A program made the translations under genes and the position numbers. A stretch of 61,477 nucleotides of DNA from Pseudonocardiales bacterium (GTDB taxonomy: Bacteria; Actinomycetota; Actinomycetes; Mycobacteriales; Pseudonocardiaceae). A model generated the notes under the pieces. The model was not told where the DNA came from, did no database searches, and worked only from the letters and a program-made list of their open reading frames with translations. Where the stretch lies: NCBI GenBank assembly GCA_019241525.1, contig JAFAWY010000087.1, positions 1 through 61,477 on the forward strand, in the 5' to 3' direction. This document shows positions 21,342-52,425 of this stretch, piece after piece; position 1 is the first letter of the stretch, and every line of letters begins with the position of its first letter.

Positions 21342-21400
21342 CGACATGGGGACATATCGCGTGCTAGACGAGCTGCGCTGGCCGATATGTCTCCATACCG
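21342..21400. repeat. 60-bp dispersed palindromic element, copy A
   Basis: Arms are about 17-20 nt with about 20 nt between: the left arm contains GACATGGGGACATATCG, the right arm (reverse complement) GTATGGAGACATATCGG. It is located 35 bp before the DUF2795 start. Two more copies occur at 25740-25798 and 52365-52425. Confidence 0.8.
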
Positions 21401-21434
21401 CGGGAAACAACGATGAAGGAAGGGGACTTCGCGA

Positions 21435-21647
21435 ATGGGGTTTCAAGTTACTGAGGTGCAGAAGGTGCTCAAGGGCTTCGACTATCCAGGGGCACCGGAG
21501 GATCTGGCCCGTCACGCCGAAGAACATGGCGCGAGCAAGGACCTGGTTGATGCGTTGCGGAACTTGCCCAAAGACTCTTTCGACGGCCCCAACGCGGTGA
21601 TGCACAGCCTGAGCGAGGTCAACGCTCTGGGCGGATCCACAAGGTAG
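21435..21647 (+). CDS. DUF2795 small protein
   Basis: 70 residues consisting of one DUF2795 helical domain: V-L-K-G-F-D-Y-P-G, L-A-R-H-A-E-E-H-G-A, V-D-A-L-R-N-L-P. A strong ribosome site (AAGGAAGGGG) precedes ATG 21435. In many actinobacteria this domain is fused behind an N-terminal H-A-E-E-W-x-D-P-E-P segment; here that segment is encoded separately at 24707. The function is unknown. The encapsulin gene follows in the same direction after 226 bp. Confidence 0.85.
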   Translation: MGFQVTEVQKVLKGFDYPGAPEDLARHAEEHGASKDLVDALRNLPKDSFDGPNAVMHSLSEVNALGGSTR

Positions 21648-21873
21648 ACGGGCTAGCTGAACGACGAGCCCTCGCCTACCGCAGCAGAAAACAAAGGCTC
21701 AGCGCATGGTATGACCCGGGGGCACCAATTCAGCAAGTTCACGAGTAACCATGCCGGTGCCCGGGCAAAGACCCTACGCAAGCATCTCAAGGCATACGTC
21801 AGCTCAGTTCGGGCAGAGATTCCGCGGGCATATCCTGCGTGCTGGGTACCGGCAGCGTGAAGGAGCATAGACG

Positions 21874-22695
21874 ATGACGGATCACCTACTACGTTCATAT
21901 GCGCCGATCCCGACCGCTGGATGGCAGCAAATCGATGACGAAGCGAAATCCCGCCTGACCTCCAGGCTTGCGGCGCGGCGCATCGTTGACTGGGCCGGGC
22001 CGCGCGGCTGGAAGCATTCCGCCACTAATCTCGGTCGGACTAACCCCTTGGAGACCACCCCACCGGGCACCAAGTCCGAAACAGCCATCGCCCGGCAGCG
22101 GCGAGTACTCCCGCTCAGCGAATTCCGGGTGAGCTTCACCGTGGATTGGTCCGCGTTGCAAGACGCCGAACGCGGCGCTACCGACGTTGACTACTCCGAT
22201 CTCGACCGCGCGACCTACGACGCCGCATTGATCGAAAATCGGGCTATATTCCATGGCTGGCCCGATGCAGGTATCACCGGGCTCACCGAGTGCAGCGCGC
22301 ACTCCTCGGTGACGCTGGCTCAGGATGTCAGCGCCTACCCGCATGTTGTCGCGAAAGCAATCGATGTGCTCCGCCAGGCAGGCGTTGAAGGCCCATATTC
22401 CCTGGCTATCGGTCCTGAGGGGTACACACGCATAGCGGAGACCACCGAGAGCGGAGGCTATCCCCTCCAGCAGCACTTGAGCAGCATCCTCGGTGGCGAC
22501 ATCGTCTGGGCTCCCGGACTGGACGGTGCGCTGGTCGTCAGCAAGCGTGGCGGTGACTTCGTCCTGGACGTAGGCCAAGACTTTTCGATCGGGTATAGCC
22601 GACATGATGCCGAGAGCGTGACGCTTTATCTGGAAGAAAGCTTCAGCTTCCACGTCAACGAGCGTGACGCGGTAGTCGTCCTCGCGGCGGCGTAG
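21874..22695 (+). CDS. Encapsulin nanocompartment shell protein (HK97 fold, CFP29-like)
   Basis: A 273-residue shell protein that self-assembles into an icosahedral protein cage loading cargo enzymes by a C-terminal targeting peptide. It aligns along its length with M. tuberculosis CFP29: N-terminal L-L-R-S-Y-A-P-I, A-A-R-R-I-V-D-W, F-R-V-S-F-T-V, I-F-H-G-W, A-G-V-E-G-P-Y-S-L-A-I-G, G-G-Y-P-L-Q-Q-H-L, G-D-I-V-W-A-P and the end S-I-G-Y-S-R-H-D-A-E-S-V-T-L-Y-L-E-E-S. GAAGGAG lies 8 nt before ATG 21874. No DyP peroxidase, ferritin-like or hemerythrin gene is adjacent and no neighbour ends in a G-S-L-x-I-G-S-L-like peptide, so the cargo is encoded elsewhere or is new. Confidence 0.93.
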   Translation: MTDHLLRSYAPIPTAGWQQIDDEAKSRLTSRLAARRIVDWAGPRGWKHSATNLGRTNPLETTPPGTKSETAIARQRRVLPLSEFRVSFTVDWSALQDAERGATDVDYSDLDRATYDAALIENRAIFHGWPDAGITGLTECSAHSSVTLAQDVSAYPHVVAKAIDVLRQAGVEGPYSLAIGPEGYTRIAETTESGGYPLQQHLSSILGGDIVWAPGLDGALVVSKRGGDFVLDVGQDFSIGYSRHDAESVTLYLEESFSFHVNERDAVVVLAAA

Positions 22696-22853
22696 CGAGT
22701 CAGGGCAGTATGCCAGCTACCGACCTGGTGATATTGGTAAGTTCGACTCGCAGACGTCCGGTAAACGCTCGATACTTGTTCCTGCGCAAACGAGCGGGCC
22801 GGCGGAAGGAACTCACCAAATCGTTCTCTCCAGGGCCTGGCGAGGAGAGTGCC

Positions 22854-23348
22854 ATGTCGACGACAACTAGTGGAGCATACGCCCCTGATGGGTCCGCCCT
22901 GGCAATGCAGCGTAGCCGTGGCGCGACCATCGGCTTCTTACTCGTACTGCTCGGTATTTGGGGTGCCATCATCCCCTTCATCGGGCCGTACTTCGGTTAC
23001 ACCTTTGGTGTGACGACTCCGTGGTTTTTCACCTACGATCGGTTGTGGCTTAGCGTCCTGCCCGGTATCGCTGTGTTCCTCGGTGGCCTCATTCTTGGTC
23101 CGAGCGCCAACCGCGCCAGCGGTGGCTTCGGCGCATGGCTGGCCCTGATTGGCGGGATCTGGTTCGTTGTCGGACCGGTGATCAGCCAACTGTGGCAGGC
23201 CGACGGCCTGGGAGCACCCATCGGCACGCCGGCAGGTAGCCGGGAACTGCAGGTGCTCGAGCAACTGGGGTACTTCTACGGGCTGGGAGCAGTGATCACG
23301 GCGCTGGCGGGCATCGCGCTGGGCCGCATGATGACCCGTTCGATCTAA
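22854..23348 (+). CDS. Four-TM integral membrane protein
   Basis: 164 residues. ATG 22854 has GAGGAGA upstream; the frame to 22710 lacks one. Four hydrophobic helices are visible: G-F-L-L-V-L-L-G-I-W-G (about residue 30), L-W-L-S-V-L-P-G-I-A-V-F-L (65), W-L-A-L-I-G-G-I-W-F-V-V-G (95), and a last one near 145 ending in R-M-M-T-R-S-I. It is not assigned to a family with known function. It lies 158 bp after the encapsulin gene, in the same direction, and is followed by a strong hairpin, so the DUF2795-encapsulin-membrane genes could share regulation. Confidence 0.75.
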   Translation: MSTTTSGAYAPDGSALAMQRSRGATIGFLLVLLGIWGAIIPFIGPYFGYTFGVTTPWFFTYDRLWLSVLPGIAVFLGGLILGPSANRASGGFGAWLALIGGIWFVVGPVISQLWQADGLGAPIGTPAGSRELQVLEQLGYFYGLGAVITALAGIALGRMMTRSI

Positions 23349-23370
23349 CCGGTCAGCACGGCATCGAACA

Positions 23371-23398
23371 CCGCACCGGCGGCCCTCCGCCGGTGCGG
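23371..23398 (+). terminator. Hairpin terminator after the membrane protein gene
   Basis: A perfect 12-bp GC stem CCGCACCGGCGG with a CCCT loop, 22 bp after the stop at 23348. There is no T-tract. Confidence 0.7.
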
Positions 23399-23503
23399 AC
23401 CTTCTCCAAGACCCGCTAGACGGGTGACACAGAGATCCCGCGTCGGTGGTTTCGCGTCCAGACAAGCCGGATAGGCCAGCCCGATCTCGGGTAACCCCCT
23501 ACC

Positions 23504-24682
23504 GTGATACCCGAGATTCCGCGTGACGTGGCTACCCACCACGGTTGGGTGGCTTCGGTCTACCTGGACGTCAGCCGCAATCGCGACGACGCACCGCATG
23601 AAGTCCGCCTGCGATGGGAAACCCTGGCCGAACAACTACGCCAGCAGGGAGCAGATGACAAGACCGTCGACGCGGTGGGGGAAGCTGTGATGCAGACCCA
23701 CGCCCACCCGGGGCCAGCGGGGCGTGCCGTCTTCGCCGGCGAAGGCGAGGTGCTCTATCAGGCCGATCTGCCTGGCCCACCGCGACACGAGCTGGCCCGC
23801 TGGGCGGCGTTGCCGCATCTGCTGCCTCTGCTGGCACAGATGCCTGAGTACGTGCCGCATGTGGTGGTTCGGGTGGGCCGCACGGCGGCGACCATCGCCG
23901 CCTTCGGTCGCACCGGTGAGCAAGTTCGCCGCGAAACCGCCGAAGGCGCCCACCATCCGGTGCACAAAACCGGTGCCGGTGGCGCTGCGCACTACCGCTT
24001 GCAGCACCACACCGAGGAGGTATGGGCCCGCAACGCTCGCGCCTTCGCCGCAGAGGTCGACCGTGCAGTCGAATCACTGAACGCCGAACTCATCGTGCTA
24101 ACCGGTGATGTCCGGGCTCGCAGCTTGGTCCGTGACGCGCTCGGGGAACGCAGCCGCAGCATCACCACGGATATCCCGGGTCCAACTCCAGACAACCACA
24201 CCACAGATCACCCCATCGACGAGGAGGTGCGCCGAATCGCAACCGAGGGTGCCGCCCAGCGAACCCGAAACGTCCTGACCCAGTTCGAGCAGGAACGCGG
24301 GCAGACGGCTGGCCTGGCCGCAGAAGGCCTAGGACCGGTGATCCACGCGCTGCAGCTCAATCAAGCCAGTGCGGTGCTACTGCGCGATGATCCGTCCTCC
24401 GAGCTGCAGATCTGGATCGGTCCCGAACCAGCGCAGCTCGCATTGACCGAGGAGGGCCTCCATGAGATCGGCGCACCCGTACTGGGGACAGACCGCGCCG
24501 ATGCCGCGCTGGTCCGCGCTGTCGCTGGCAGCGGGGCCGAGTTGGTGCTACTACCGGATCCCGCCTCGGATACCGAGCCGGACCGGACGGGCAGCGCGGC
24601 CGGTGGCGCACCACCGCTGGGCGGGCAGGCAGAACTTACCGACGGGATAGGCGCGCTGCTGCGGTTCAGCAGCCCGGCATAA
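23504..24682 (+). CDS. Rv2629-like protein (bacterial/archaeal eRF1-like domain family)
   Basis: 392 residues. N-terminal V-A-S-V-Y-L-D-V-S-R, central P-V-H-K, L-I-V-L-T-G-D-V-R-A-R and C-terminal D-G-I-G-A-L-L-R-F match the actinobacterial Rv2629 family, which has an eRF1-domain-1-like/Vms1-like fold. The family is induced by hypoxia or dormancy in mycobacteria and a ribosome-related role has been proposed from the fold; neither can be tested from this sequence. The start is uncertain (GTG 23504 or GTG eight codons later); no strong ribosome site is seen. Confidence 0.85.
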   Translation: MIPEIPRDVATHHGWVASVYLDVSRNRDDAPHEVRLRWETLAEQLRQQGADDKTVDAVGEAVMQTHAHPGPAGRAVFAGEGEVLYQADLPGPPRHELARWAALPHLLPLLAQMPEYVPHVVVRVGRTAATIAAFGRTGEQVRRETAEGAHHPVHKTGAGGAAHYRLQHHTEEVWARNARAFAAEVDRAVESLNAELIVLTGDVRARSLVRDALGERSRSITTDIPGPTPDNHTTDHPIDEEVRRIATEGAAQRTRNVLTQFEQERGQTAGLAAEGLGPVIHALQLNQASAVLLRDDPSSELQIWIGPEPAQLALTEEGLHEIGAPVLGTDRADAALVRAVAGSGAELVLLPDPASDTEPDRTGSAAGGAPPLGGQAELTDGIGALLRFSSPA

Positions 24683-24706
24683 CCCCAGACCGACAGGGAG
24701 CACCGA

Positions 24707-24895
24707 GTGCAACGAGGCAGCGACAAGCACAGCGCGCGTAAGGACGACGCGTTGGCGCGCGATGTCGAGGGCATGATCCGCGGGACTGGTCCAACCCATG
24801 CCGAAGAGTGGAAGGATCCCGAGCCCCCCGCCGATGACGATCCTGAGCTCAACACCCGTGCGCCTATCGTGGACCGTGGCGACAGTACGAAATGA
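24707..24895 (+). CDS. Small acidic protein, N-terminal half of a DUF2795-type protein
   Basis: 62 residues from GTG 24707 with GGGAG upstream. The sequence Q-R-G-S-D-K-H-S-A-R, then V-E-G-M-I-R-G-T-G-P-T-H-A-E-E-W-K-D-P-E-P is the conserved N-terminal segment that in many actinobacteria leads into a C-terminal DUF2795 domain (total about 130 residues). Here the frame stops after the linker, and a free DUF2795 domain is encoded at 21435. It is 24 bp after the Rv2629-like gene, probably cotranscribed. Confidence 0.75.
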   Translation: MQRGSDKHSARKDDALARDVEGMIRGTGPTHAEEWKDPEPPADDDPELNTRAPIVDRGDSTK

Positions 24896-25089
24896 CCACC
24901 CTTAAATTGGCCTGACACGGTTCTGGCAGGCAGCACACGCACGCCAAGTTGAGCAGGATTGAACGGGCCCGGTGCGGGGCATACGGGCGGCGTCTGGGCG
25001 CAACGCGCTGATGGCAATCAAGCCAGCGGGCATGCGGTACATGGTGATGCCCCGGTGGAGAGATCATGGGTACGTTATGCCTGCTCACG

Positions 25090-25465
25090 AAGGTCACCGA
25101 AGCTGGCGACGAGTTGGATCATCGCCCGCATCGCCTTGCTCCGGCTCCCCCACTGGCCTACTACCTGACCTACCGGATCTGCCTGGGCCTGCAACGCCCC
25201 CACCGGGAGGTACTCGATCACGGAATCGAAACGGCATCATCCGCCGGCTACCGCATGGCGAATTCATCGAAGTCCACCAATCCCTCGGTGCCGTCGACGA
25301 TCACGGCCACCCCCTTCCCGTGCCCTACCAGGCGCCCGAGTGTCCCAACGGATGAGCCAACTCGGCGCCGCGGGACACCCTGTCCCCGGCTCGCTCTACC
25401 GGCCCGATCCCCCAGCCGAAACCGCCGCGCTCCAAGCTGCCCGCGACGGCAACAGTGAGCGCTAA
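25090..25465 (+). pseudogene. Frameshifted 3' fragment of qcrB (cytochrome b of complex III)
   Basis: Three frames in succession read the C-terminus of actinobacterial Qcr[14 protein letters not shown]; then (after a shift near 25145) [15 protein letters not shown] with [10 protein letters not shown]; then (one base lost near 25234) [24 protein letters not shown]; then (shift near 25350) [20 protein letters not shown] to the TAA at 25463-25465. At least three frameshifts and no upstream gene body make it a dead duplicate. The functional qcrCAB must be elsewhere. Confidence 0.85.
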
Positions 25466-25680
25466 ATCCACCGCCGTGGAAGATCCAGTTGTGGGGGTGG
25501 TGGGGGTTCCAGGGGTGGCACCGGGAAGGGCTCCGGTTCCGGATGGATGGGATCTGGGGGCGGGGGCGGTACCGGTTCCGGGTCCGGTGTGGGCTCTGGA
25601 TCCGGGGGGACGGTGTTCACGGCGAGCCCCGGTCGCCACGTGCTGGCAATCACGCGGAGTACCTCCTGCTCAATCGTCAT
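25462..25680 (-). CDS. Hypothetical Pro/Glu-rich small protein
   Basis: A 72-residue frame starting M-T-I-E-Q-E-V-L-R-V-I-A-S-T-W-R-P-G, then a low-complexity tail of P-E-P, P-D-P and P-P-P-P units. The short helical head and disordered tail could be a real small protein, but there is no clear ribosome site and no recognised family. It is flanked by the qcrB fragment and by palindromic element B. Low confidence. Confidence 0.3.
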   Translation of the reverse strand: MTIEQEVLRVIASTWRPGLAVNTVPPDPEPTPDPEPVPPPPPDPIHPEPEPFPVPPLEPPPPPQLDLPRRWI

Positions 25681-25739
25681 CTCATGGGTACCCAGCACCC
25701 CTGCGGACGAAGCGCGGCGTCCTATCCCCTCCTCCATCT

Positions 25740-25798
25740 CCGATAGGGAGACATAATCGGGTTTTGACCCCCTAGAACGCCATATGTCTCCATGCCGG
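25740..25798. repeat. 60-bp dispersed palindromic element, copy B
   Basis: The left arm has CGATAGGGAGACATAATCGG, the right arm (reverse complement) GGCATGGAGACATATGGCG; the same core GGAGACATA as copies A and C. It lies 28 bp beyond the mrpD stop and could serve as its terminator. Confidence 0.8.
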
Positions 25799-25825
25799 AT
25801 CTAGGTATTGGGGGCTGGGGCGGCG

Positions 25826-27643
25826 TTAGGTGGCGGCAAGGCCGATCGCTAACAGCGTCACACCAACGAGGAGCCAGACGACGTAGTCTCCAAGGTGGCC
25901 TGAATGCGCAGTGCGCAGTGCCCGAAACGGCAGGGTAACGACGGTAGGGACCTGACTGAAGACCCGCCGGAGCCGGTCGCTGTACAAGCCCACGGCCGCT
26001 ACGGCCAAGGCCAGCAGCACCGACAGCCCGCCTAGCAAGAGGCCGGACAACGTCCAGCTCGCAGCTGGCGCAGGCGGTGGCACAGCACTGATTCCGTCCA
26101 GGGCAGCGGCGGCATAGCCGGTGTGGTCGAGCAGCTGGGAAGCGGCATCCTGAGCAAGCACGGGCAGCCCGGGCACCAAGCCCAGGATGAGCCCACCGGC
26201 GAGCAGGGCGACTATCGGGACGAGCATGGTGACGGGAATCCGGCCGAGGTGATGCGTGGTCTCTGGGTCTTCCCCGGATCCCCGGGTGCCATCCCGCGTA
26301 CCCGGCGGGGCGCCCGCACCCAGGAAAATCCGCAGTCCGGCCCGGAGCACGGCACCGCCGGTGACCGCTGAAACGCCCACTAATAGGTAATCAGTCCAGC
26401 CGAACCCGGCGTGGGACAAGCCGTCTTCAGCCAATGTCTTTCCCAGCCAGGTGCCGAATGGGGGAAGCGCCGCCAGCGCCAGGCCACCGAGGAGAAAACA
26501 GACTCGGGTGGCCGGCAAGTCGCGAGCGCGGCCATGCAGCTCGGCCTCGTCCACGCTGCCCCGAGCATTGAGCACAATCCCAGCGCACAGGAACAAGGCG
26601 CCCTTCACCGCAGCGTGCCCGACAACGTAGATCGCCAAACCCCCAATCGCGGCTGGTTCCAGCGCCCCGAGCGCGACGAGGAACATACCGACGTGGCCGA
26701 CCGTGGAGAAGGCGAGCAACCGTTTGAGGTGGTATTGAGCCAGGCACATCACTGCCCCAACCAGCGCGGTCACCACACCGGCCGCCATCAGCACCGGCCG
26801 CAACCGTTCGGCCGGCAGCACCGGCGAGAATGCGGCTGACCAGGTTCGGGCAACGCCATAGAGGCCCAGTTCGACCATCACCCCGGAGAACAGCACGCAC
26901 ACCGGCGAGGGGGCGACGGCGTGTGCGTCGGCCAACCAGAAATGAAGCGGTACCGCAGCGCCCTTAACCAGGAACCCGGTGAATACCAGCGCGGTACCCA
27001 CCAGCACCAGCCAGTCGGTGCTCTGCCCTGCCAAAGCTCGCTGGATCTGAGCAAAACCCAGTTCGCCGGTGCGCCCGTAGATTAACCCAATGCCCAGCAA
27101 CGAGCAGTAGGCTCCCAGCGAGTTGATCACTGCGAAGTTGAGGGCACCCTGCAACGGCTTGGCTTCCTCGATCTTGTAGCCGGTCAGTGCGTAGGCCACC
27201 GCGCCCATCAGCTCGAAGAACACGAACGCGTTGAACAGGTCGCCGGTCAGGGCGAAGCCAACCATGCCTGCTAAGAAGAGCAAGATCAGGACGTGAAAAT
27301 AGCTTTCCACCTCATCGAAGTAACGCCAGGTGTAAGTCAACACTGCGGTGACCAGCGCCGCGATCAAGGTAGCCAGCCCAGCACCGATCCGGTCAACGAC
27401 GAAGACCACTCCAACGCTGGACCCGTCGACCGGTGGGTAGGCGCCGAGCCAGCTGACCACGCGCCGGGAACCGGTGGCGTTGAGCAGCATCACCGAGCCG
27501 GCGAGCACCAGCAGGCAGCTGAGCATCGAGACTGTATCGATTACCAACCGGGGCAGCACCCGGCCGCTGGCGGCCAGCACCGTCGCCGCCAGCAACGGCA
27601 CCACCACCAGCAGCGGTGGCAGCGCCTGCACGGTCGGCGACAC
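25826..27643 (-). CDS. mrpD: Mrp antiporter subunit D (NuoN/M-like proton channel)
   Basis: A 605-residue polytopic membrane protein of the proton-translocating NADH-quinone oxidoreductase/MrpD family, with about 14 helices. The TM5 Glu lies in F-V-F-F-E-L-M-G-A-V-A-Y, the TM7 Lys in F-L-V-K-G-A-A-V-P-L-H-F-W-L-A-D-A-H, and the TM8 Lys region in A-Q-Y-H-L-K-R-L-L-A-F-S-T-V-G-H. These are the conserved residues of ion-conducting antiporter modules. It is the last gene of the minus-strand operon. A Gly/Arg-rich loop G-T-R-D-G-T-R-G-S-G-E-D-P-E near residue 455 is unusual. It is the only large antiporter-like subunit in the operon. Confidence 0.93.
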   Translation of the reverse strand: MSPTVQALPPLLVVVPLLAATVLAASGRVLPRLVIDTVSMLSCLLVLAGSVMLLNATGSRRVVSWLGAYPPVDGSSVGVVFVVDRIGAGLATLIAALVTAVLTYTWRYFDEVESYFHVLILLFLAGMVGFALTGDLFNAFVFFELMGAVAYALTGYKIEEAKPLQGALNFAVINSLGAYCSLLGIGLIYGRTGELGFAQIQRALAGQSTDWLVLVGTALVFTGFLVKGAAVPLHFWLADAHAVAPSPVCVLFSGVMVELGLYGVARTWSAAFSPVLPAERLRPVLMAAGVVTALVGAVMCLAQYHLKRLLAFSTVGHVGMFLVALGALEPAAIGGLAIYVVGHAAVKGALFLCAGIVLNARGSVDEAELHGRARDLPATRVCFLLGGLALAALPPFGTWLGKTLAEDGLSHAGFGWTDYLLVGVSAVTGGAVLRAGLRIFLGAGAPPGTRDGTRGSGEDPETTHHLGRIPVTMLVPIVALLAGGLILGLVPGLPVLAQDAASQLLDHTGYAAAALDGISAVPPPAPAASWTLSGLLLGGLSVLLALAVAAVGLYSDRLRRVFSQVPTVVTLPFRALRTAHSGHLGDYVVWLLVGVTLLAIGLAAT

Positions 27644-27646
27644 CCG

Positions 27647-27991
27647 TCAGTCCTGTAGCGCGCGCAGCTCGTCGGGGTTTACAGTCCCGTGCCTCTTGTA
27701 GATCTGGACAGTCAGCGCGAGCAGGACCGCAGTGACTGTTGCGGAGACCACGATGTCGGTCAGGCTTAACGCCTGCACCACCGGATCGACCACCCGGGTG
27801 CCGACCGGAACGTCAGCGAACACCGGTGCCGTAGCACCAGCCCGGAAGCCAACGGCGAGCAACAACACGTAGGTGGCCGACTGCGCGACAGTCAAGCAGG
27901 CCACTGTGTGCACGAGGTTGCGGCTGGTCACCAGTCCGTAGCAACCCACCAGAAACAACCAGCCGGCGACCAGGTAAGGCAGTGTGATCAT
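27647..27991 (-). CDS. mrpC: Mrp antiporter subunit C (NuoK-like)
   Basis: 114 residues with three membrane helices, homologous to NuoK/MrpC. The helix T-V-A-C-L-T-V-A-Q-S-A-T-Y-V-L-L-L-A-V-G-F and the conserved D-P-V-V-Q-A-L-S-L-T-D-I-V-V are diagnostic. The start ATG overlaps the mrpB stop by 4 nt; the stop is 3 bp from the mrpD start. It forms part of the ion-translocating membrane module. Confidence 0.92.
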   Translation of the reverse strand: MITLPYLVAGWLFLVGCYGLVTSRNLVHTVACLTVAQSATYVLLLAVGFRAGATAPVFADVPVGTRVVDPVVQALSLTDIVVSATVTAVLLALTVQIYKRHGTVNPDELRALQD

Positions 27992-28806
27992 CGTTGCTCC
28001 GCATCGTCGGCAACCATGCTCGAACCCGCAAGCGGTTCTTCGGTAGAGATGCTCGAACCCGCAAGCGGTTCTTCGGTCTGCCTCAGCACGACCTCCTGTT
28101 CGAGAAATCCGGATAGTAAGAGCACAATCGCGGCCGCCACCGCCACGCCGACAGCCCCGTTGAGCAACGGCACGGTGCCGCCGGAAAGCAGATCGTTGAG
28201 GCGTCCCGTGGGCAAGAAATTGACCAGAAATGCACCCCCGATAACCAAACCCGCCAGACCGATCGCAGCGTAAGCGGCCGCACCGACCGATTCGGCGATT
28301 TCCAGCACTGTTGGAGATGCAGCACGCCGCAGCGCTGTATAGCGCCCGGCGACGTAGAGCAGATGCCAGCCGGTGGCCAGCACCACCCCACCTTGGAATC
28401 CACCACCAGGGCTGAGCTGACCGTGGGCGATCACATAAAGCCCCACCAGAACGCTGACCGGCAACAGCAAGTACCCGGCCAACCGGGTGGTCGGCAACAC
28501 CCGGCCAGCCGACCGCAGGCCGGTCTCCCGCTCCTCCGGCGCCGGGCGCAGCAGCACGATCGTGCCGATCACCGAACCGAACAGAATGAATTCTTCTCCC
28601 AGCGTGTCGATTGCGCGTTGGTCGAAATTCACCGACGAGACCACGTTGGCTGTCGCGCGCTGCCCGGTGGCCATCTCTACGGCGCGGTCGCCGTAGGGAT
28701 GGAACTCGGAGCCGAAACTCGGCAGGCCCTGGGCCGCGAGGAAGAATAACGCCGCAAAGACCGGCGCCACGATGACGAACAACACCAGACGCGACCGACG
28801 AGTCAC
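27988..28806 (-). CDS. mrpB: MbhE-MrpB fusion subunit of the Mrp/Mbh antiporter
   Basis: 272 residues. The N-terminal part (G-L-P-S-F-G-S-E-F-H-P, F-D-Q-R-A-I-D-T-L-G-E-E-F) corresponds to the MbhE-like C-terminal segment of MrpA; the following helices, Y-V-I-A-H-G-Q-L-S-P-G-G-G-F-Q-G-G, are the MrpB/MbhF hallmark. So two archaeal Mbh subunits are fused in one chain. The C-terminus ends in two copies of T-E-E-P-L-A-G-S-S-[IM], encoded by a 33-nt tandem repeat also found in gatA. ATGA overlaps join it to both neighbours. Confidence 0.9.
   Translation of the reverse strand: MTRRSRLVLFVIVAPVFAALFFLAAQGLPSFGSEFHPYGDRAVEMATGQRATANVVSSVNFDQRAIDTLGEEFILFGSVIGTIVLLRPAPEERETGLRSAGRVLPTTRLAGYLLLPVSVLVGLYVIAHGQLSPGGGFQGGVVLATGWHLLYVAGRYTALRRAASPTVLEIAESVGAAAYAAIGLAGLVIGGAFLVNFLPTGRLNDLLSGGTVPLLNGAVGVAVAAAIVLLLSGFLEQEVVLRQTEEPLAGSSISTEEPLAGSSMVADDAEQR
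28019..28077 (-). repeat. 33-nt tandem repeat in mrpB 3' end
   Basis: Unit 1 at 28019-28051 and unit 2 at 28052-28077 (26 nt conserved) are identical over their shared length. Each encodes T-E-E-P-L-A-G-S-S. It resembles the gatA repeat at 43465-43523 with the same period and orientation relative to the gene. Confidence 0.85.
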
Positions 28807-29356: not shown

Positions 29357-29604
29357 TGCCGCACCACCAAGCGGGCAAACACCAGCGATCCAGTCAATGA
29401 CAACGCGGCCAGGACCAGACCAGCGTCCACGTAGGAGCTGCGTTGATAGCCCTCGGACAGCAGCAGCATCTCCAGCGTGGCGACCACACCAGCCATCCCC
29501 AATCCGGCCAAGCGGTCGAGGAGGTCACCACGGCCGGCGACCACCACCGCCGGCAGCATTCCCACTACCAGCAAGGCCGCCGCAGCGACCAGCCACGTGT
29601 TCAC
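29353..29604 (-). CDS. mrpF: Mrp antiporter subunit F
   Basis: 83 residues, three helices, MrpF/PhaF family. It includes the conserved R-G-D-L-L-D-R-L-A-G-L-G segment (P-x-x-x-D-R-x-x-x-x-D in the family) between helices 1 and 2. Coupled by 4-nt overlaps to mrpG and mrpE. Confidence 0.9.
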   Translation of the reverse strand: MNTWLVAAAALLVVGMLPAVVVAGRGDLLDRLAGLGMAGVVATLEMLLLSEGYQRSSYVDAGLVLAALSLTGSLVFARLVVRQ

Positions 29605-37251: not shown

Positions 37252-37264
37252 CTAGCTTGGCGCA

Positions 37265-37319
37265 TTCTGGATGCAGAACGCGGTTTTTAGGGCCACAAAA
37301 CAGCGTTCTGCATCCAGAA
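37265..37319. repeat. Paired palindromes between ilvN and ilvC
   Basis: A perfect 17-bp inverted repeat, TTCTGGATGCAGAACGC at 37265-37281 and its complement at 37303-37319. Each arm is itself dyad-symmetric (GTTCTG-nnnn-CAGAAC), so two copies of a TTCTG-nnnn-CAGAA operator-like site lie 38 bp apart. It may be a regulatory site, terminator or dispersed repeat. Confidence 0.7.
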
Positions 37320-37353
37320 CGCGGTCTTGGCGGGTGGTGGATGCGGGTGGGCG

Positions 37354-45026: not shown

Positions 45027-45319
45027 GACTCATCCAGGATGCGCGGCACCTGGAATCGACCGTCCTCGGTGGCGTAGGCACCAGAGAGTGCCTGCTGCTG
45101 GGTTAAGCAAGGGCCAGGCACGTCGTCGCGGAACACATCTTCCAGCCCGATCGCGTGCGAGGTGGGAGGGATGTCCTCGGTCGCCACCTCGCGAACCCGG
45201 GCGACCGAATTCAAGATCACGTCAAGCTGGCCGGCGAACAGGTCGAGCTCCTCCTCGGTGACGGCGAGCCGGACGAGCCGGGCGAGATGCGCAACCTCGC
45301 CACGGGAGATGGTGGGCAC
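45023..45319 (-). CDS. gatC: Asp-tRNA(Asn)/Glu-tRNA(Gln) amidotransferase subunit C
   Basis: 98 residues. GTG 45319 with AGGAG 5 nt upstream begins [15 protein letters not shown], the usual GatC N-terminus; the longer frame to 45841 is antisense to the ACT gene. The C-terminal R-D-D-V-P-G-P and F-Q-V-P-R-I-L typify the subunit, which clamps GatA to GatB. First gene of the operon; divergent from the ACT protein gene with a 213-bp gap. Confidence 0.96.
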
Positions 45320-45532
45320 GCGAACTCCTGAATGCTTGTGGGATTGCTGACCCGGCGAGTCTAGCCTCGGATCTTTTTGCAGTTGGGTACCCGGTTGCGT
45401 GCTAGGGGACGCCACGTGCAGCTCGCTCTGCCACAATCGCGGCCGGCGAGCGCTCGGACTATCGAAGTCGGCGTCTCTTAATGGAGGATTCTTCATGGAG
45501 TTGACTCGGCGCGCGAACAGGCACGGCGGCGG

Positions 45533-46186
45533 ATGTCCTTTCTGATCCGAGTTCAGCTGCCCGATCGCCCTGGCGCGCTCGGTGCGGTGGCAACCGCGCT
45601 GGGCAAAGTAGGAGTCGACATCCTCAGCTTGGACGTTGTCGAGCGTAGATCGGGCGTCGCCATCGATGACCTCGTGGTGGAGCTGCCCACCGGCCAGCTG
45701 CCGGATGTGTTGATCACTGCTGCGGAGTCGGTGCCGGATGTTGAGGTCGATGCCGTCCGCCCGTGGGCAGGAGTTCTGGACACTCACCGCGAGCTGGAGC
45801 TGGTGGAGCAGATCGCCGCCGACTCTGAACACGGACTGCAAACCTTCACCGACGGGGTTCCTAAGATCATTCGTGCGGGTTGGGCGGTGGTATTCACTGC
45901 CAGCGAGGGCGAGCCCCGCCGGCTCACCGCCTCGTTCGCGGCACCTGAGACGGTCGCCGGGGAGCTGCCGTGGTGGCCTTTGCGCCGGGCCACGATCTTG
46001 GACGGTGAGGAGTCCTGGGTCCCGCTGCCCTGGCGGGAACTGGGCACAGAACTAGCGGCCACCCCGGTCGGCGGCCCCGATCGGGTGCTGCTGATCGGCC
46101 GCCCGGGCGGCCCGATGTTCCGGGCCGCTGAAGTGGCCCGTCTAGAGCACCTGGCCGGCATCGTCGCAGTCGTACTGCGTAAGTGA
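45533..46186 (+). CDS. ACT-domain protein (Rv3013-like)
   Basis: 217 residues. An N-terminal ACT domain (V-Q-L-P-D-R-P-G-A-L-G-A-V-A-T-A-L-G, V-D-I-L-S-L-D-V-V-E-R) is followed by a C-terminal half with P-W-W-P-L-R-R-A and a GNAT/GAF-like end L-E-H-L-A-G-I-V-A-V-V-L. Orthologous in place and domain layout to Rv3013, always divergent from gatC in relatives. It probably senses an amino acid; the ligand is unknown. The ribosome site before ATG 45533 is weak. Confidence 0.85.
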   Translation: MSFLIRVQLPDRPGALGAVATALGKVGVDILSLDVVERRSGVAIDDLVVELPTGQLPDVLITAAESVPDVEVDAVRPWAGVLDTHRELELVEQIAADSEHGLQTFTDGVPKIIRAGWAVVFTASEGEPRRLTASFAAPETVAGELPWWPLRRATILDGEESWVPLPWRELGTELAATPVGGPDRVLLIGRPGGPMFRAAEVARLEHLAGIVAVVLRK

Positions 46187-46242
46187 TTCCCGAGCGCCAA
46201 CCTCGCGAATGCGGATCACGTGGGGTCGGACATGTCGTGGAC

Positions 46243-46289
46243 TCGACAAAACCGACGTTTTTGGCCCGCGCGAATGTGGGTTTCATCGA
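46243..46289. repeat. Imperfect 47-bp dyad between convergent genes
   Basis: TCGACAAAACCGAC at 46243-46256 mirrors GTGGGTTTCATCGA at 46276-46289 (11 of 14 positions). It lies between the convergent ACT and substrate-binding protein genes and may act as a terminator or be a dispersed repeat. Confidence 0.45.
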
Positions 46290-46363
46290 GCTCACAGCAC
46301 ACCCCGCAGATGGGAGTGGCAGCATCAAACATGCTGCCCAGTACTGCCGCCCGTCGGCAGGTA

Positions 46364-48160
46364 TTAGCTCACATTCCATTCATTGGCATTCCACGTGACG
46401 CCGTCGGGAGCTTGACGGTAGACGGTGTCAATGTTGTTCGCATAAGCCCACATGATGGGGACCTGAAAAAGTGGAAGCGACACTAGATCGTCGGCGAGGA
46501 GCCGATCGGCCTGGGCCAAGGCATCAAGCTGAGTGGGTTCGGCGTACTCCGTCTCTGCGATACCGAGCGCAGTGTCGACGGCCGGGTTGCTGTAATGCTG
46601 GTAATTGAGCGTGCCTTTGGAGTCGTAGTGGTCAGCCGCGGACCATGCCCGGGGTATGCGTGAACTCGCCGTCAAGACCACATCGAACCGGCCCTGGGAT
46701 ACGGCCTCGTCCAGGTCGTTGGGGTTAGCGGTGTTGGCGATCTCCATTCCGGCTTGCCGGCATTGTTCCCTGATCAGGTCGACTTCTTGGGAATGCGCCG
46801 ACGAACCGTCATGGCTGATCGCAAAGGAAAGTCGCTGTCCGGCCCGGGAATAGACACCATCAGAACCCAGCACCCACCCCCCGCGCTCTAGCGTCACTTG
46901 TGCTTTTCGCGGGTCGGCAACCATCTTGCCCGAGTACAGATCCTCGTACTTCGCATCCCCGGGAAGGAATACCAGGCTACCCAATGGCTGAGCCTCCGGG
47001 CGCACACCACGAACCAGTTCATCGACTAGCTTGTTGCGATCGATGCACTGGGCAAAGGCTGCGCGGACCACGGGATCTTTGAACAAGGGGCCGGCCAGAT
47101 TGAGATCAAGGTGTTCGACGGTGGGGCCGTCGCTTGTTTCGAATGTCACACCGCGCGCCGACAGTTCCCGCAATCGATCGGCCAGCAGCGGATCAGCCGG
47201 GAGTTGCACAACACCGAACTGCCGGTTCGTCAGTCCTGCGGCCGCGGCAGCACCATCCGTCACGACGGTGAACACGAGCATCGCTGGGCCTCCCGGATTG
47301 CCCACCCAGGCGCTGTTGCGGATCAGCACTGTCCGAGTGCTCGACGTTGAGCTGTCGAATTGATAGGGGCCCGACGCTGGCATCGTCTTCAGGTCGAAGT
47401 CGTTCCATTTGCCGTTCCAGAAGTCACCGGCCTTTTTGAGTTCTTCGGGCGGCGACGTCGGCCGCAGTGCCGTGACGTTGGAGATTCCGGTTTCCTGTTC
47501 GAGAATATGGGCGGGCAGGATGGCGTGCTGGAGGTAATTGCGGCGCCAATCGGCGTAAGGAGAACGGTAGGTCTCGACGAACGTGTTGTTGTCCCGACAC
47601 TCCGCGGTGACGCGATCCAATCCGCGGGTACTCGCCGGCTTGAAGTACGGGGTGGATCCACTACCCGCCAACCAGGCCAGGTAGAAGTCGCGGCAATCCC
47701 AGGGCTGCCCGTCCGACCATCGGACATTGGGCTTTATTTTGTAGGTGACAACCTGTGGATCTTTCGACGTCAGCTCGGCGGAGAGCAGCACGTCGGAGTT
47801 CAGTAACAGTTTTCCGTTCCCGTCGAGGATGAACGGGTCGGCCAGCACTTGATTGAGGACCAGATCATTGTCTGGATTGTGCTTGGCTTGCGCCGTCGCG
47901 TTGTTGTACGCAGAAAACGGCGCGCCGTGGGCGATGACGACAGCGTGCCCCGGCGGCACCTTCGGGGCCCGATATGTCCCGTCTCCGCTGTCACCACGTG
48001 CTTGGGTACTCGCGGCACCGCCGCCATCCGGACGGTCGGTTTCCCGGGCCGACGAACAACTGGTCGTGGCAAGGAGCAGGCAGATGATCCCCGCCAGAAG
48101 CCGGATCAGCAGCCGGATGCACCTTGACGTGCGCAATAACGGGATCCCTTCTGGAGTCAC
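46364..48160 (-). CDS. Peptide-type ABC substrate-binding lipoprotein
   Basis: 598 residues from GTG 48160, which overlaps the preceding gene's stop (GTGA). A basic start, hydrophobic helix and T-T-S-C give a probable lipoprotein. Solute-binding family 5 (OppA/DppA) features: Y-K-I-K-P-N-V-R-W-S-D-G-Q-P-W-D-C-R-D-F, F-V-E-T-Y-R-S-P-Y-A-D-W, and R-A-A-F-A-Q-C-I-D-R-N-K-L-V. No permease or ATPase genes adjoin. It looks like a duplicated partner of the LpqW-like gene just upstream. Confidence 0.87.
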   Translation of the reverse strand: MTPEGIPLLRTSRCIRLLIRLLAGIICLLLATTSCSSARETDRPDGGGAASTQARGDSGDGTYRAPKVPPGHAVVIAHGAPFSAYNNATAQAKHNPDNDLVLNQVLADPFILDGNGKLLLNSDVLLSAELTSKDPQVVTYKIKPNVRWSDGQPWDCRDFYLAWLAGSGSTPYFKPASTRGLDRVTAECRDNNTFVETYRSPYADWRRNYLQHAILPAHILEQETGISNVTALRPTSPPEELKKAGDFWNGKWNDFDLKTMPASGPYQFDSSTSSTRTVLIRNSAWVGNPGGPAMLVFTVVTDGAAAAAGLTNRQFGVVQLPADPLLADRLRELSARGVTFETSDGPTVEHLDLNLAGPLFKDPVVRAAFAQCIDRNKLVDELVRGVRPEAQPLGSLVFLPGDAKYEDLYSGKMVADPRKAQVTLERGGWVLGSDGVYSRAGQRLSFAISHDGSSAHSQEVDLIREQCRQAGMEIANTANPNDLDEAVSQGRFDVVLTASSRIPRAWSAADHYDSKGTLNYQHYSNPAVDTALGIAETEYAEPTQLDALAQADRLLADDLVSLPLFQVPIMWAYANNIDTVYRQAPDGVTWNANEWNVS

Positions 48161-49905
48161 GGGCGCAACTGCCAGCGGGCAGCGCCGTCGAGCGGACCTT
48201 CCAACGGCGTGCCAGGGACCACGTCGGGCAGCTGGCTCGTGCTGATAAACAACGACACCGGCTGGTATAGCGGGATCGTCACGGCGTGCTGCCACAGTGC
48301 AGCATCCAGCGCAGCGGGCACCGTGCCCGCCGGATCCTCCTCGGTCAGCGCCCGCTCGATCATTGGTTGCAGGGTCAGGTCGCAGAACTGGGCGGGATTG
48401 GGCGGGGCAGGAGCCAGCCTGGCCGGGACGACCAGCGGGCAGCCGTACCAGGACTCCAGCTGGGTGGCGGGGTGGCCGGCGGCCGGCTGAGGCACCACCG
48501 CGATATCGACGTCCGGCGTAGTGGCCGACGTGGGCAGCTCGGCGGTGCCGCCACGAGGCGCCCCGGGGGCGATCGGACCGAGCAAGGTGCCGAAAAGCTC
48601 GTCAGCATCTACTTCGCGCAGTGCGGCATCGATCCCAGCGGTCCGCAACTGGTCCACCACTCGAGCGGCGAGGGTACCGTAGGGCTCTCGATTTGCCGGC
48701 GCAGCCACCACCAGCCGCAGCGGCTGCCCGGCACGCTCCCAGCCGGTTGGGCCACGGGTGTACCCGGCGTCGGTGAGCAGCCGGCGAGCGAGATCTGGAT
48801 CCGGCGCTACCGGTACTCCCGCGGTCGGTGCGGTGGGGCGGTAATCCGGCGCAGACGGGGCGAGGATTTCCGAATCGGCGCGCAGCGCTGCGGAGGGCCC
48901 GCTGCCGACCCCGGTGGCGATCAACGAAGCTCGGTCCAGCAATGCGGCTACCGCGGTGCGCGTCCGCTCATCGCTCAATACCCGGCTGGCCGGTCGCAGC
49001 AGCAGCGATACCAGCACCGGCTGGGGTACGACGGTCGGGCTCACACCCAGCTGGGCTTCCCGCAGGAGCAACTCGGTGATGGCATTGGGACGCCCGAACA
49101 GGGCGCTTTGCATGCCCCCGGTACGCAGTGCATCGATCACCGCTGCCTCGCTGCCTTGCCGCAACCGGATCCGCCCTATTTGCGTCGGGGTGTCCCAGTA
49201 CCGGTCATTGCGTTCCAGCACGATCTCGCCGCGCGACCGGTCTACCGAGGTCATTGCGAACGGTCCACCGGAGACCGGCACCCCGGCATCGAGCGCCTTA
49301 CTCCAGCCTCCGGGTGCATCCTTAAGCAGGTGAGCGGGTAGCAGGTAGCGAAACAGGGTGCGCCACCCTGCGTAGGGCCGGGTGAAGACCACTTCGGCGG
49401 TCTTGCCACCGTCCCGGGAGATCACCTGGTCGATCAGCTGGTAGCCGGCCGAATCCACGACCCCGGGCTGGCTGCGCATCTGCGCAGCGAGATACCCGAA
49501 GTCCTCTGCGGCGATGGGGGTGATATCCGACCACTGCGCGTTGCGCCGGATCCGGTAAGTGACGGTGAACGGCGCCGTGTTGGTCACCTCGGCGGAGGTC
49601 AGCAACGTGCGGTCAAGGACCCACTGACCGTCCGATTCCTGGTGAAAAGCTGACGGCAGCAGCAGCCCTGCCAGCGCCGCCGAAAGCGGGGCCAGATCGG
49701 CGAGGGTGTGCGGGTTGAAACCACCGATCAACCCATCCACGCCGAGTACTACTTCCCGTACCAGCGGCGGCGAAATCGGCAGGCTGGTGGCCGGGCGCCG
49801 GATCGCGTTCAGCGGCGGCTGGGGGGCGCACGCGACGATCGCAGCGACTGTGGCGCTGGAGACCAGCGCGGTCACCACCCTGCGCGCGCCGCTGGGCATC
49901 CTCAC
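48157..49905 (-). CDS. lpqW: LpqW-like substrate-binding-fold lipoprotein
   Basis: 582 residues, lipobox I-V-A-C after a hydrophobic signal. It closely follows mycobacterial LpqW: G-F-N-P-H-T-L-A-D-L-A-P-L, L-L-L-P-S-A-F, T-N-T-A-P-F-T-V-T-Y-R-I-R and Q-P-G-V-V-D-S-A-G-Y. LpqW in mycobacteria controls flux of polar PIMs and lipoarabinomannan at the mannosyltransferase PimE rather than importing peptides. As in M. tuberculosis (Rv1166) it adjoins typA. ATG/GTG near 49905; the downstream lipoprotein gene is coupled by GTGA. Confidence 0.85.
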   Translation of the reverse strand: MRMPSGARRVVTALVSSATVAAIVACAPQPPLNAIRRPATSLPISPPLVREVVLGVDGLIGGFNPHTLADLAPLSAALAGLLLPSAFHQESDGQWVLDRTLLTSAEVTNTAPFTVTYRIRRNAQWSDITPIAAEDFGYLAAQMRSQPGVVDSAGYQLIDQVISRDGGKTAEVVFTRPYAGWRTLFRYLLPAHLLKDAPGGWSKALDAGVPVSGGPFAMTSVDRSRGEIVLERNDRYWDTPTQIGRIRLRQGSEAAVIDALRTGGMQSALFGRPNAITELLLREAQLGVSPTVVPQPVLVSLLLRPASRVLSDERTRTAVAALLDRASLIATGVGSGPSAALRADSEILAPSAPDYRPTAPTAGVPVAPDPDLARRLLTDAGYTRGPTGWERAGQPLRLVVAAPANREPYGTLAARVVDQLRTAGIDAALREVDADELFGTLLGPIAPGAPRGGTAELPTSATTPDVDIAVVPQPAAGHPATQLESWYGCPLVVPARLAPAPPNPAQFCDLTLQPMIERALTEEDPAGTVPAALDAALWQHAVTIPLYQPVSLFISTSQLPDVVPGTPLEGPLDGAARWQLRP

Positions 49906-49979
49906 GAGGCGACATGCTGCCGCAGGGCGATCTCGCCGGCGATGACCGGGGTGTGGGGCAGGCTTGGGCCAGGCCGGTG

Positions 49980-51878
49980 CTATGCCCTAGCCGCCCGGTC
50001 CCGGGCGCGCTGGCGGGCGCGCTGGGTCGGGTCGAGCATCACCTTGCGCACGCGAACCACTTCCGGCGCTACCTCGACGCACTCATCAGCGGCGCAGAAT
50101 TCCAAAGCCTCCTCCAACCCGAGGATCCGCGGGCGGGCTAGCCGCTCGAGTTCCTCACCGGTGGACGAGCGCATATTGGTCAGCTTGCGTTCCCGGCACA
50201 CATTGACGTCCAGATCCTCAGCTCGGGGGTTCTCGCCGACCACCATCCCGGCGTAGACAGCCGCGCCGGGTTCAACAAAGAATGTTCCCCGGTCAGCCAG
50301 CTGGGACAGCGCGTAGCCGGTGACCGCTCCGGACCGGTCGGCGACCAGCGATCCGGAGCGCCGGGTGCGCAGCTCACCAGCCCACCGGCGGTAGCCGTCG
50401 AAGACGTGGTGAGCGATGCCGGTGCCCCGGGTCATGGTGAGGAACTCGGTGCGAAAACCGATCAGCCCGCGGGACGGCACGGTGAACTCCAGCCGCACCC
50501 AACCATCCCCGGATACCGCACCCAGCTGCTCCAGCCGGCCCTTGCGGGCGGCCAGTAGCTCGGTCACCGCACCGATGTGCTCCTCGGGAACGTCGATGGT
50601 GAGCAACTCGTACGGTTCGTGCTGGACGCCGTCCACGATGCGGGTGACAACTTGCGGCTTGCCGACGGTGAGCTCGAAGCCCTCCCGACGCATGGTTTCC
50701 ACCAGGACAGCCAGCGCCAGCTCGCCGCGGCCCTGCACTTCCCAGGTGTCCGGGGAGTCCGTGGGCGACACCCGGATGCTCACATTGCCGACCAGCTCGG
50801 CCTCCAACCGGTTACGCACCAAGCGGGCGGTGAGCTTGCGGCCACCACCCCGGCCGGCCAGCGGGCTGGTGTTGACTCCGATGGTCATCGCGATCACCGG
50901 CTCGTCCACGGTGATCCGCGGGAGCGGGCGTGGATCGTCGACGTCGGCCAGGGTGTCCCCGATGGTGATCTCTGCGATGCCGGCAATGGCGATGAGATCG
51001 CCGGCTTTGGCGCTGGTGGCCGGGACCCGCTCGAGTCCCTCGGTACGCAGCAGCTCAGTGATCCGCACCGGGCGGATCGACCCATCCTCGCGGCACCAGG
51101 CCACCGTCTGGCCCTTGTGCAGCCGTCCGGCGCGGATCCGGCACAGCGCGATCCGGCCCAGGAAGCTTGATGCATCCAGGTTGGTGACATGCGCTTGCAA
51201 CGGCGCTTGTGCATTGCCGTCAGGCGGCGGCACGTGGGTGAGGATGGCCTCGAACAGCGGGGCGAGGTTTTGGGCGTCCGGCATCTCGCCGTCGCGCGGC
51301 CTGGTGCGACTGGCCCGACCAGCCCGGGCACTGGCGTAGAGCACCGGCATGTCCAGCACCTGCTCTGCCGCATCTTCTTCCAGATCGCCGGCGAGATCGA
51401 GCAGCAGGTCGTGGGTTTCCTCGACCACCGCGTCGATCCGGGCATCTGGACGGTCCACCTTGTTGACGACGAGCACGACCGGTAGGTGTGCGGCCAGTGC
51501 CTTGCGCAGCACGAACCGGGTCTGCGGCAACGGGCCCTCGCTGGCGTCGACCAGAAGCAGTACGCCATCCACCATGGACAGGCCACGCTCGACCTCGCCG
51601 CCGAAATCGGCGTGCCCGGGGGTGTCGACCACATTGATCGTGACGGGACCGTCTGGTGTGGGCCAGGTAACTGCGGTGTTCTTAGCCAGGATGGTGATGC
51701 CCTTCTCCCGTTCGAGGTCACCAGAGTCCATCACCCGATCCAGCTCGGTTCGCCCGGCCACCGCGCCGGATTGCCGCAGCATGGCATCCACCAGCGTGGT
51801 CTTACCGTGATCGACGTGCGCGACGATGGCCACATTGCGCAGGTCGGTGCGCATGCGAGCAGGGGCGGCGGTGGGCAC
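49980..51878 (-). CDS. typA: Ribosome-associated GTPase TypA/BipA
   Basis: 632 residues, translational GTPase involved in stress adaptation and ribosome assembly. GTG 51878 is preceded by GAGGAG. G motifs: A-H-V-D-H-G-K-T-T (G1), D-T-P-G-H-A-D-F (G3), V-N-K-V-D (G4); then domains II, III, V and the TypA-specific C-terminal part with T-N-M-R-S-S-T-G-E. The basic tail ([11 protein letters not shown]) is typical of actinobacterial members. Confidence 0.97.
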
Positions 51879-51932
51879 GCGGGAACTCCTCAACAAGCAT
51901 GTGGGTGATGCCGGGGCCCTTTCAGGTTACCC

Positions 51933-52343
51933 TCAGCCACCGGCGCGTCTGTCCTCGTGGGCCGCCAGGAGCGCGTGAAGGTGCGGCAGCACCACTCGGT
52001 CGGGATCCAACCAGTCGAGCTCAGCTAGCTCCCTGCGACTTACCCACCGCAGCGCGGCATGCTCCACCGGGCTCGGTGTCGCCTCTGGCCAGGCCAGGCG
52101 CGCGACGTGCACGCGGAGTGTGGCGCCCCCGGGCAACGGTATGTCTGGCCCGAGTTGGTCGCCGGGTACCACGTCAACGGCGAGTTCCTCGCGGCACTCC
52201 CGGATCACCGCGTCCGCGGCGCTCTCCCCCGGCTCGACCCGGCCGCCGGGCAGCTCCCAACGGCCCGCGGCTTCTGGCGGAAAGGCCCGTTGCTGGGCAA
52301 GTACCCGGCCATCACGCATTACCGCCGCCGCAACCACGAGCAC
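51933..52343 (-). CDS. NUDIX hydrolase (MutT-like)
   Basis: 136 residues from GTG 52343, 6 nt after GAGAGGGAGG. The Nudix box G-G-R-V-E-P-G-E-S-A-A-D-A-V-I-R-E-C-R-E-E-L is complete. The W-E-L-P-G-G start and W-L-x-P-D end resemble 8-oxo-dGTP/CTP pyrophosphatases (MutT2 type), which cleanse the nucleotide pool; in M. tuberculosis mutT2 (Rv1160) lies near typA. The frame to 52748 is antisense to the next gene. Confidence 0.93.
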   Translation of the reverse strand: MLVVAAAVMRDGRVLAQQRAFPPEAAGRWELPGGRVEPGESAADAVIRECREELAVDVVPGDQLGPDIPLPGGATLRVHVARLAWPEATPSPVEHAALRWVSRRELAELDWLDPDRVVLPHLHALLAAHEDRRAGG

Positions 52344-52364
52344 GCTCGCCTCCCTCTCCTTTAG

Positions 52365-52425
52365 CAGACATGAGACATATCCGGGTTTCCCACCGACTCG
52401 CCGCCCCATTACGTCTCCATGTCGG
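52365..52425. repeat. 60-bp dispersed palindromic element, copy C
   Basis: The left arm is CAGACATGAGACATATCCGG, the right arm (reverse complement) CCGACATGGAGACGTAATGG. It fills most of the 97-bp gap between divergent starts of the NUDIX (52343) and SEC-C (52441) genes. Confidence 0.8.

Follow-up and report, generated by a model that had tools for sequence, protein, structure and literature searches.

What kind of element are the short palindromes that recur between genes in an actinobacterial genome, and do they move, act as RNA or bind a protein? The question arises from a 61,477-nt stretch of a Pseudonocardiales bacterium of the family Pseudonocardiaceae (GenBank assembly GCA_019241525.1, contig JAFAWY010000087.1, positions 1 to 61,477), analysed as a whole and hereafter called the window. 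A sequence-only reading had described a palindromic element of about 60 bp in three intergenic gaps and had proposed a mobile miniature element, a structured RNA or a site for a dimeric protein. We searched for this element, family A, in the window's genome (G000; 4.72 Mb, 148 contigs), in ten other members of its genus (G001 to G010) and beyond. On balance we lean toward family A being a miniature element like the hairpin-forming doublets of repetitive extragenic palindromic (REP) sequences known as REPINs, namely two inverted 20-bp quasi-palindromes that enclose a centre 22 nt long in most copies. The strength of this reading comes mainly from anatomy and dispersal.

Anatomy, copy number and distribution of family A

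All three copies are present in the window. Copy 1 (21341 to 21401; arms 21341 to 21360 and 21382 to 21401, centre 21 nt) lies between a DUF1015 gene on the reverse strand and a DUF2795 gene on the forward strand. Copy 2 (25740 to 25798; arms 25740 to 25759 and 25779 to 25798, centre 19 nt) sits 28 bp downstream of the stop codon of a Proton_antipo_M (mrpD-like) gene at 25826 to 27643 on the reverse strand, and copy 3 (52365 to 52425; right arm 52406 to 52425, centre 22 nt) lies between a NUDIX gene on the reverse strand and a SEC-C gene on the forward strand. The intergenic contexts given previously were thus verified, those of copies 1 and 3 being gaps between divergent genes. The arm, proposed to have a core of 14 nt, is in reality about 20 bp and itself a quasi-palindrome; the centre is variable as described, but its length is not the 20 nt proposed. 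Sixteen nucleotides of the outer arm, allowing up to three mismatches, match five window sites against 0.37 expected, and 0 of 100 shuffles attain five. The half-like matches reported near 16562 and 57135 are not supported: they are not among these five, and the best arm matches within 60 nt of them carry 9 and 8 mismatches in 20. A covariance model of the element, R1, recovers the three copies on the forward strand with E-values from 1.7e-12 to 1.8e-11, the copies being part of the model's training set. Folding as single-stranded DNA, compared with shuffles, gives z = -3.12 for copy 1, a weak -1.86 for copy 2 and -0.35 for copy 3, the most degenerate of the three and no better than its shuffles; a family A copy of G006 reaches -8.53. 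An Rfam search of the window at the gathering score returned no match save one tRNA.

The genome holds many more copies than a control pattern would give: across the whole of G000 a strict two-arm pattern matches 21 times, at 11 separate sites, and its reversed control has no match. About 40 sites emerge from a BLAST search with a composite query, in which 40 of 57 candidates were scored, and R1 gives 84 strand-matches, or about 42 sites. The unit reads CCGACATGGAGACATATCGG, centre, CCGATATGTCTCCATGTCGG, with the arms 22 nt apart in most copies, in a consensus built from 31 of the 42 listed G000 copies; nine single-arm or very degenerate copies were excluded and two were found later. Its length is 62 bp in most of the copies aligned, 31 from G000 and 38 from G006 and G007. 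As in the definition of a REPIN, two inverted ends of conserved sequence, here the arms, enclose a spacer of near-fixed length.

Each arm is an 8+4+8 quasi-palindrome that can form a small hairpin of its own, and the whole element can fold either into a single long hairpin or into a pair of small ones. Within-arm pairing holds in 90.3% of cells in the 38 G006/G007 copies and 81.2% in the 31 G000 copies, and neither set has covariation inside a single arm. In the 18 G000 rows whose centre is 22 nt long (among which L044 is doubtful by its mismatches), most arm positions carry 1 to 2 bits of information and the middle of the centre 0.1 to 0.6 bits. Identity among standard-length paralogues is 0.76 to 0.79 in the arms and 0.39 in the centre in G000 (19 copies), and 0.88 to 0.90 and 0.48 to 0.52 in G004, G006, G007 and G008 (41 copies). 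Six of the loci fetched carry a single arm (L053, L054, L057, L058, L063 and L065), and at two more the second arm is barely recognisable.

Family A is nearly restricted to one genus among the genomes screened. At an E-value of 0.01, R1 has at least one match in nine of the ten other genus members, and two of 50 genomes from outside the genus match weakly (G013 and G047). In a further sample of 120 genomes from the family, six match at 1e-6, five belonging to the genus and one, G103, to another. Copy number is uneven within the genus: with stricter filters, strand-matches number 84 in G000, 58 in G006, 33 in G007, 31 in G004, 22 in G008, 10 each in G001 and G005, 4 in G010, 1 in G002 and 0 in G003, and G009 has 88 in the joint R1 screen and 118 in its own search. 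An exact inner-arm pattern occurs in 16 stretches, in metagenome-assembled genomes labelled Pseudonocardiales, Pseudonocardiaceae or Actinobacteria and in one contig labelled Rikenellaceae. To judge by these labels, the genus of the window is probably an uncultured member of the Pseudonocardiaceae. In the Rikenellaceae contig (CAMWRR010000157.1; L103, 1378 to 1413) the inner arm is contained in a longer palindrome, which may reflect chance, mis-binning or artefact. Separately, G013, from another genus of the family, has double palindromes of 61 to 62 bp with an ATGGRGCCAT core 4 to 5 bp behind called genes (L083, L089, 1501 onward). Our literature search found no report joining intergenic palindromic repeats with Pseudonocardia, or repetitive extragenic palindromic sequences with Pseudonocardiaceae.

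Likeness to REPINs and the case for mobility

In the part of PMC3116915 that describes them, REPINs have inverted conserved ends and a spacer that is less conserved but matters through its length and its ability to form a hairpin; compensatory changes are common, and singlets are remnants. Family A shares with that description the inverted hairpin-forming ends, the less conserved spacer of near-fixed length, dispersal, extragenic position, compensatory changes, singlets and the presence of several families per genome. It differs in its actinobacterial host, in the lack of a match to the Y1 transposase of REPs (RAYT) in the 11 genus genomes, in the absence of a GTAG or CGTC tag from the arm consensus of G000 and that of G006/G007, and perhaps in the mutual resemblance of centres between families with different arms. 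Of the 16 flanking positions, the first is the one place where a C/G pair is frequent in G000, G006 and G007 alike, no tag-motif search having been made there. Similar in placement are the CGTC-tagged REPs, which, in the sections of PMC3733652 devoted to them, form inverted doublets mostly downstream of coding regions with some intragenic, as family A does; the CGTC tag is the difference. The main text of PMC3733652 does not contain the word Actinobacteria, and in the sections cited it treats as an open question the means by which certain palindromic repeats spread when no dedicated enzyme serves them. Since the Y1/RAYT gene and the tag were looked for and not found, we say that family A works like a REPIN and not that it is one. 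The Rickettsia palindromic elements, Correia, ERIC and RUP are small palindromic repeats, some intragenic, of other size and sequence, and several of them carry TA target duplications, which were not seen around family A. Integron attC sites have paired inverted boxes around a variable middle, with pairing kept as a folded single strand; in contrast, no tandem cassette array was seen in the window.

The compensatory changes are strong in the copies listed for G006 and G007, 38 in number and a subset of what both genomes hold. Double-change cells between the arms number 49 against 23.3 ± 3.4 in shuffles, and the covariation score is 0.160 against 0.090 ± 0.008, with 0 of 500 shuffles as high. 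Because such shuffles ignore relatedness, we examined orthologous places. Species have the element in common at 12 groups of orthologous loci. In several of these the centre is plainly shared and the arms differ by paired changes, as at L133/L299 (GGAG..CTCC vs GGGG..CCCC) and L143/L303. The arms are conserved in relatives, and neither of the outcomes that had been named as refuting the observation, no excess of copies or no arm conservation, was obtained. The arm covariation that had been suggested as a check is found in G006 and G007 and at orthologous places, but not in the window's own genome.

Dispersal, the existence of several families and uneven copy number all point to mobility. Copies would spread by copy-and-paste, probably via a folded single strand acted on by some enzyme. 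A mobile miniature element is the best supported of the three explanations first proposed, yet several results weigh against it. A search for Y1 transposases (PF01797, E 0.001) was positive in 5 of 14 controls and in 0 of the 11 genus genomes, all drafts in which a lack of matches is not proof of absence. No target-site duplication of 3, 4, 5, 6, 8 or 9 bp is enriched at offsets from -4 to +5 in G000, G006 or G007. Nor did any clean pair of filled and empty sites, or an insertion caught in the act, emerge from the scan of family A (60 stretches, giving two-sided alignments at 38 locus/genome pairs drawn from 15 of 24 G006 loci) or of family F, a second family treated below (eight places and one further among the loci at hand). 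Species without the element differ across the 3' gap, and since the gaps differ as a whole the insertion boundary is unreadable. Viral contigs hold no stretch with the exact two-arm pattern of family A or F, and plasmids gave no blastn match at E 0.01 to one copy of each family.

Age and divergence add to these points. Arm-arm pairing in G000 stands at 79.9% of cells against 79.7 ± 0.6 in shuffles, that is, no covariation. Many copies are old and inherited: nineteen of the 42 listed for G000 have a whole or partial element at the same place in G009; the G009 stretches were mostly chosen for carrying elements, and the remaining 23 copies say nothing. At the G009 places of the window copies, a degenerate copy corresponds to copy 1, one visible arm to copy 2 and three arms to copy 3. 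In G001 and G004 to G008, a set of species rather than a proven clade (no genus tree was made), 27 orthologous pairs compared by local alignment differ at 8.6 and 8.2% of arm positions, 16.9% of the centre and 14.3% of alignable flanks, with 16 paired double changes, 2 other doubles and 67 singles. Taking one pair for each of 12 loci, the arms differ at 7.6 and 8.4%, the centre at 15.4% and the flanks at 11.8%, with 6 paired doubles, 1 other double and 31 singles. Arms in these species thus change somewhat more slowly, whereas resident copies of a purely selfish kind would be expected to decay everywhere. Between G000 and G009, counted in the same way, 15 pairs differ at 15.9 and 12.5% of arm positions, 19.1% of the centre and 14.6% of flanks, with 2 paired doubles, 5 other doubles and 79 singles (15 of 19 shared loci, excluding window copies 2 and 3, L063 and L072). 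Maintenance accordingly has a moderate sign in G001 and G004 to G008 and none in G000 and G009, the pair that holds the window. An earlier count by global alignment of 29 pairs (arms 9.5 and 8.1%, centre 21.8%, flanks 32.4%) was set aside; it included one element under two locus names, a G007 paralogue and apparently one mis-oriented pair, and local alignment gives a smaller contrast.

A transposon of the DDE kind would account for a dispersed, noncoding, short inverted-repeat element if family A were a miniature inverted-repeat transposable element with 20-bp terminal inverted repeats. The arms are internally palindromic and no target-site duplication was enriched, and we regard this as highly improbable. 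Two genes caught between a pair of copies were considered as mobilisers and rejected: one, at L046, encodes an alpha/beta hydrolase, and the other, at L131, a protein resembling REase_MTES_1575 but scoring below the cut-off of that family.

While REPINs are linked to RAYT transposases, several REPIN-shaped families occur here in one genus in which no Y1 gene was found. The same genus holds element-rich species and species nearly or wholly without the element (G002, G003 and G010), and a mobiliser could be sought by gene presence.

Gene ends, hairpins and rival explanations

Family A is multi-copy and mainly extragenic, with a few copies inside genes. Within 40 bp of a stop codon lie 70% of extragenic copies in G000 (n = 33), 74% in G006 (23), 67% in G007 (12) and 100% in both G004 (7) and G008 (7), compared with 26 to 38% of random intergenic placements at the same loci; the same test, which excludes intragenic copies and copies under 46 bp and takes gene starts and stops from a simple gene caller of our own, not from annotation, gives no enrichment near gene starts. 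The two window copies between divergent genes are exceptions to this placement. Under the REPIN-like reading, the preference for 3' gaps may arise from hairpins being tolerated, or of use, in such places.

Such a position, together with the arm covariation in G006/G007, also fits a functional RNA hairpin of conserved sequence at mRNA 3' ends, a terminator or 3' stabiliser, with species exchanging one hairpin for another behind a given gene. At L110, L111, L113, L129 and L144 the corresponding gap of relatives holds another palindrome or a terminator-like hairpin rich in T, and family F offers a parallel at the L202 locus. In a hairpin acting as RNA, half-changed pairs should favour G-U over A-C as read on the transcribed strand. 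We counted 10 G-U against 16 A-C in G004, G006, G007 and G008 and 23 against 28 in G000; these small numbers, from pairs read from the ends without gaps, give no support for RNA action. A terminator scan of 20500 to 26500 had no match at copy 1 or copy 2, the flanks of the other copies being read by eye. Copies between divergent starts, and one inside a called Mg-chelatase-like gene at the same place in G004, G006, G007 and G008 (in G006 the gene product carries AAA and VWA domains of the Mg-chelatase type), do not suit the idea, which also leaves the same arms at unrelated loci unexplained. The structured RNA first suggested agrees with the 3'-end position and with covariation in two relatives but less well with the points just given, and we consider it rather doubtful.

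Pairing of the arms might instead be a mutational footprint. Replication template switching, in events of the kind treated by Monttinen and Loytynoja in the relevant part of PMC8794818, would match the arms to each other and copy flanks into inverted repeats, and hairpin function would be unneeded. In G006 the outer stem runs on into the flanks, with 139 paired positions against 104.7 ± 7.9 (0 of 1000 shuffles). Single arms are framed by inverted repeats of 8 to 13 bp with at most one mismatch at L066, L050, L129, L139, L144, L135 and L060, and at the L129/L139 locus the flanks differ between two species yet are complementary around the same arm in each. The lack of a G-U excess agrees with this explanation. 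Template switching can produce such flank-arm-flank pairing, going by the same portion of PMC8794818, and selection for a stem can too. Outer extension is absent from G000 (150 against 145.0 ± 8.6) and G007 (60 against 60.8 ± 5.2), and template switching accounts for pairing but not for dispersal or for arms slower than centre and flanks. We judge it unlikely. The genus would permit selection and template switching to be weighed against each other as sources of hairpin covariation.

The third proposal, a protein-binding site, would make family A a paired operator for a putative dimeric or tetrameric DNA-binding protein. The centres of the two arms are 42 bp apart, about four helical turns; the 8-4-8 arms, their mostly fixed spacing, the occurrence of single arms and the fact that at orthologous places the centre changes faster than the arms are all consistent with it. 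Independent operators do not predict arm-to-arm covariation, though, and copies lie 3' of genes rather than upstream, several families share one design with different arms, and in the comparison of G000 with G009 the arms show no conservation beyond that of the flanks. The paired quasi-palindromes fit this proposal and the covariation does not, and we think it very unlikely.

Within the REPIN-like reading, resident copies in G004 to G008 may be partly maintained, whether as 3'-end hairpins, as binding sites or through arm-matching template-switch repair. With no covariation in G000 and arms drifting like flanks, the window copies look as if they are decaying, and they may be inactive remains.

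Further palindrome families

Families B, C, D and F and a short-loop family E were sorted by eye from a palindrome scan of the fetched loci. Family F, the second family of the same design in the window, has other arms: its units read GCRKTCTG-GATG-CAGAMYGC for the element at 37260 to 37324 and GCAGTCTG-GATG-CAGACTGC for the family as sorted. The window element is a strong 65-nt hairpin (z = -9.2 as folded DNA), and G009 and G007 carry it at the corresponding locus. Strand-matches number at least 80 each in G000 (40 of 83 candidates scored) and G009 (40 of 92), 44 in G001, 23 in G007, 17 in G005, 12 in G008, 3 in G004 and 1 in G006, and G010, G003 and G002 have none. Standard-length paralogues of G000 and G009 (14 copies) are 0.92 to 0.94 identical in the arms and 0.64 in the centre. 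The L202 locus carries family F in G009 and G000, a family C palindrome in G007 (L331) and a short gap in G001.

Centres resemble one another across families A, B and F although the arms appear unrelated by eye. A motif from 41 family A centres of G004, G006, G007 and G008 scores a mean of 15.6 on its own training set and -10.6 on shuffled centres. The same motif averages 13.6 on 11 family F centres of G001, G004, G005, G007 and G008, 1.3 on F of G000, 3.3 on F of G009, 2.1 on A of G000 and 19.8 on B, represented by two copies; the z values of this comparison are inflated, since copies related to one another were counted as if independent. Family B, a palindrome CCGCATTCAGCGGGCTCAGCGGGG.., occurs at L138 680 to 745 (G007) and L263 634 to 699 (G008), and its centre in L138 is two bases off that of the G007 family A copy at L134.

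These resemblances leave room for a tentative variant, a modular class in which one and the same palindromic core, some 22 bp long (consensus GGCTATCGGGCGCCCGATAGCC), sits within at least three unrelated arm pairs (A, B and F). Families would arise by both arms being replaced at once, a non-Y1 enzyme would move them, and part of the genus would have a recognising factor with which the arms change together. In G004, G006, G007 and G008 the co-change invoked, GGAG/CTCC against GGGG/CCCC, is seen at several orthologous loci. We see this as possible, with the odds against it.

Family C, with outer arms like GYCGTGAACTCGAC, was found at L297 895 to 958, L142 1955 to 2021, L140 776 to 854, L135 4562 to 4626, L137 2390 to 2453, L244 667 to 731 and L248 929 to 990. 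Paired units like CGCCATTCGG-AG-CCGAATGGCG define family D (L141 5423 to 5509, L112 2413 to 2475 and L245). Family E comprises GTGAGTG..CACTCAC hairpins at L133 5052 to 5107, L119 5650 to 5701, L134 4588 to 4629, L138 3909 to 3956 and L114 567 to 612, whose loops are mostly short and which look terminator-like by eye. Elsewhere in the window, an encapsulin-like (Linocin_M18) gene lies at 21874 to 22695, downstream of the DUF2795 gene, and a 41-nt repeat occurs in three copies with 30-nt spacing at 60957 to 61057.

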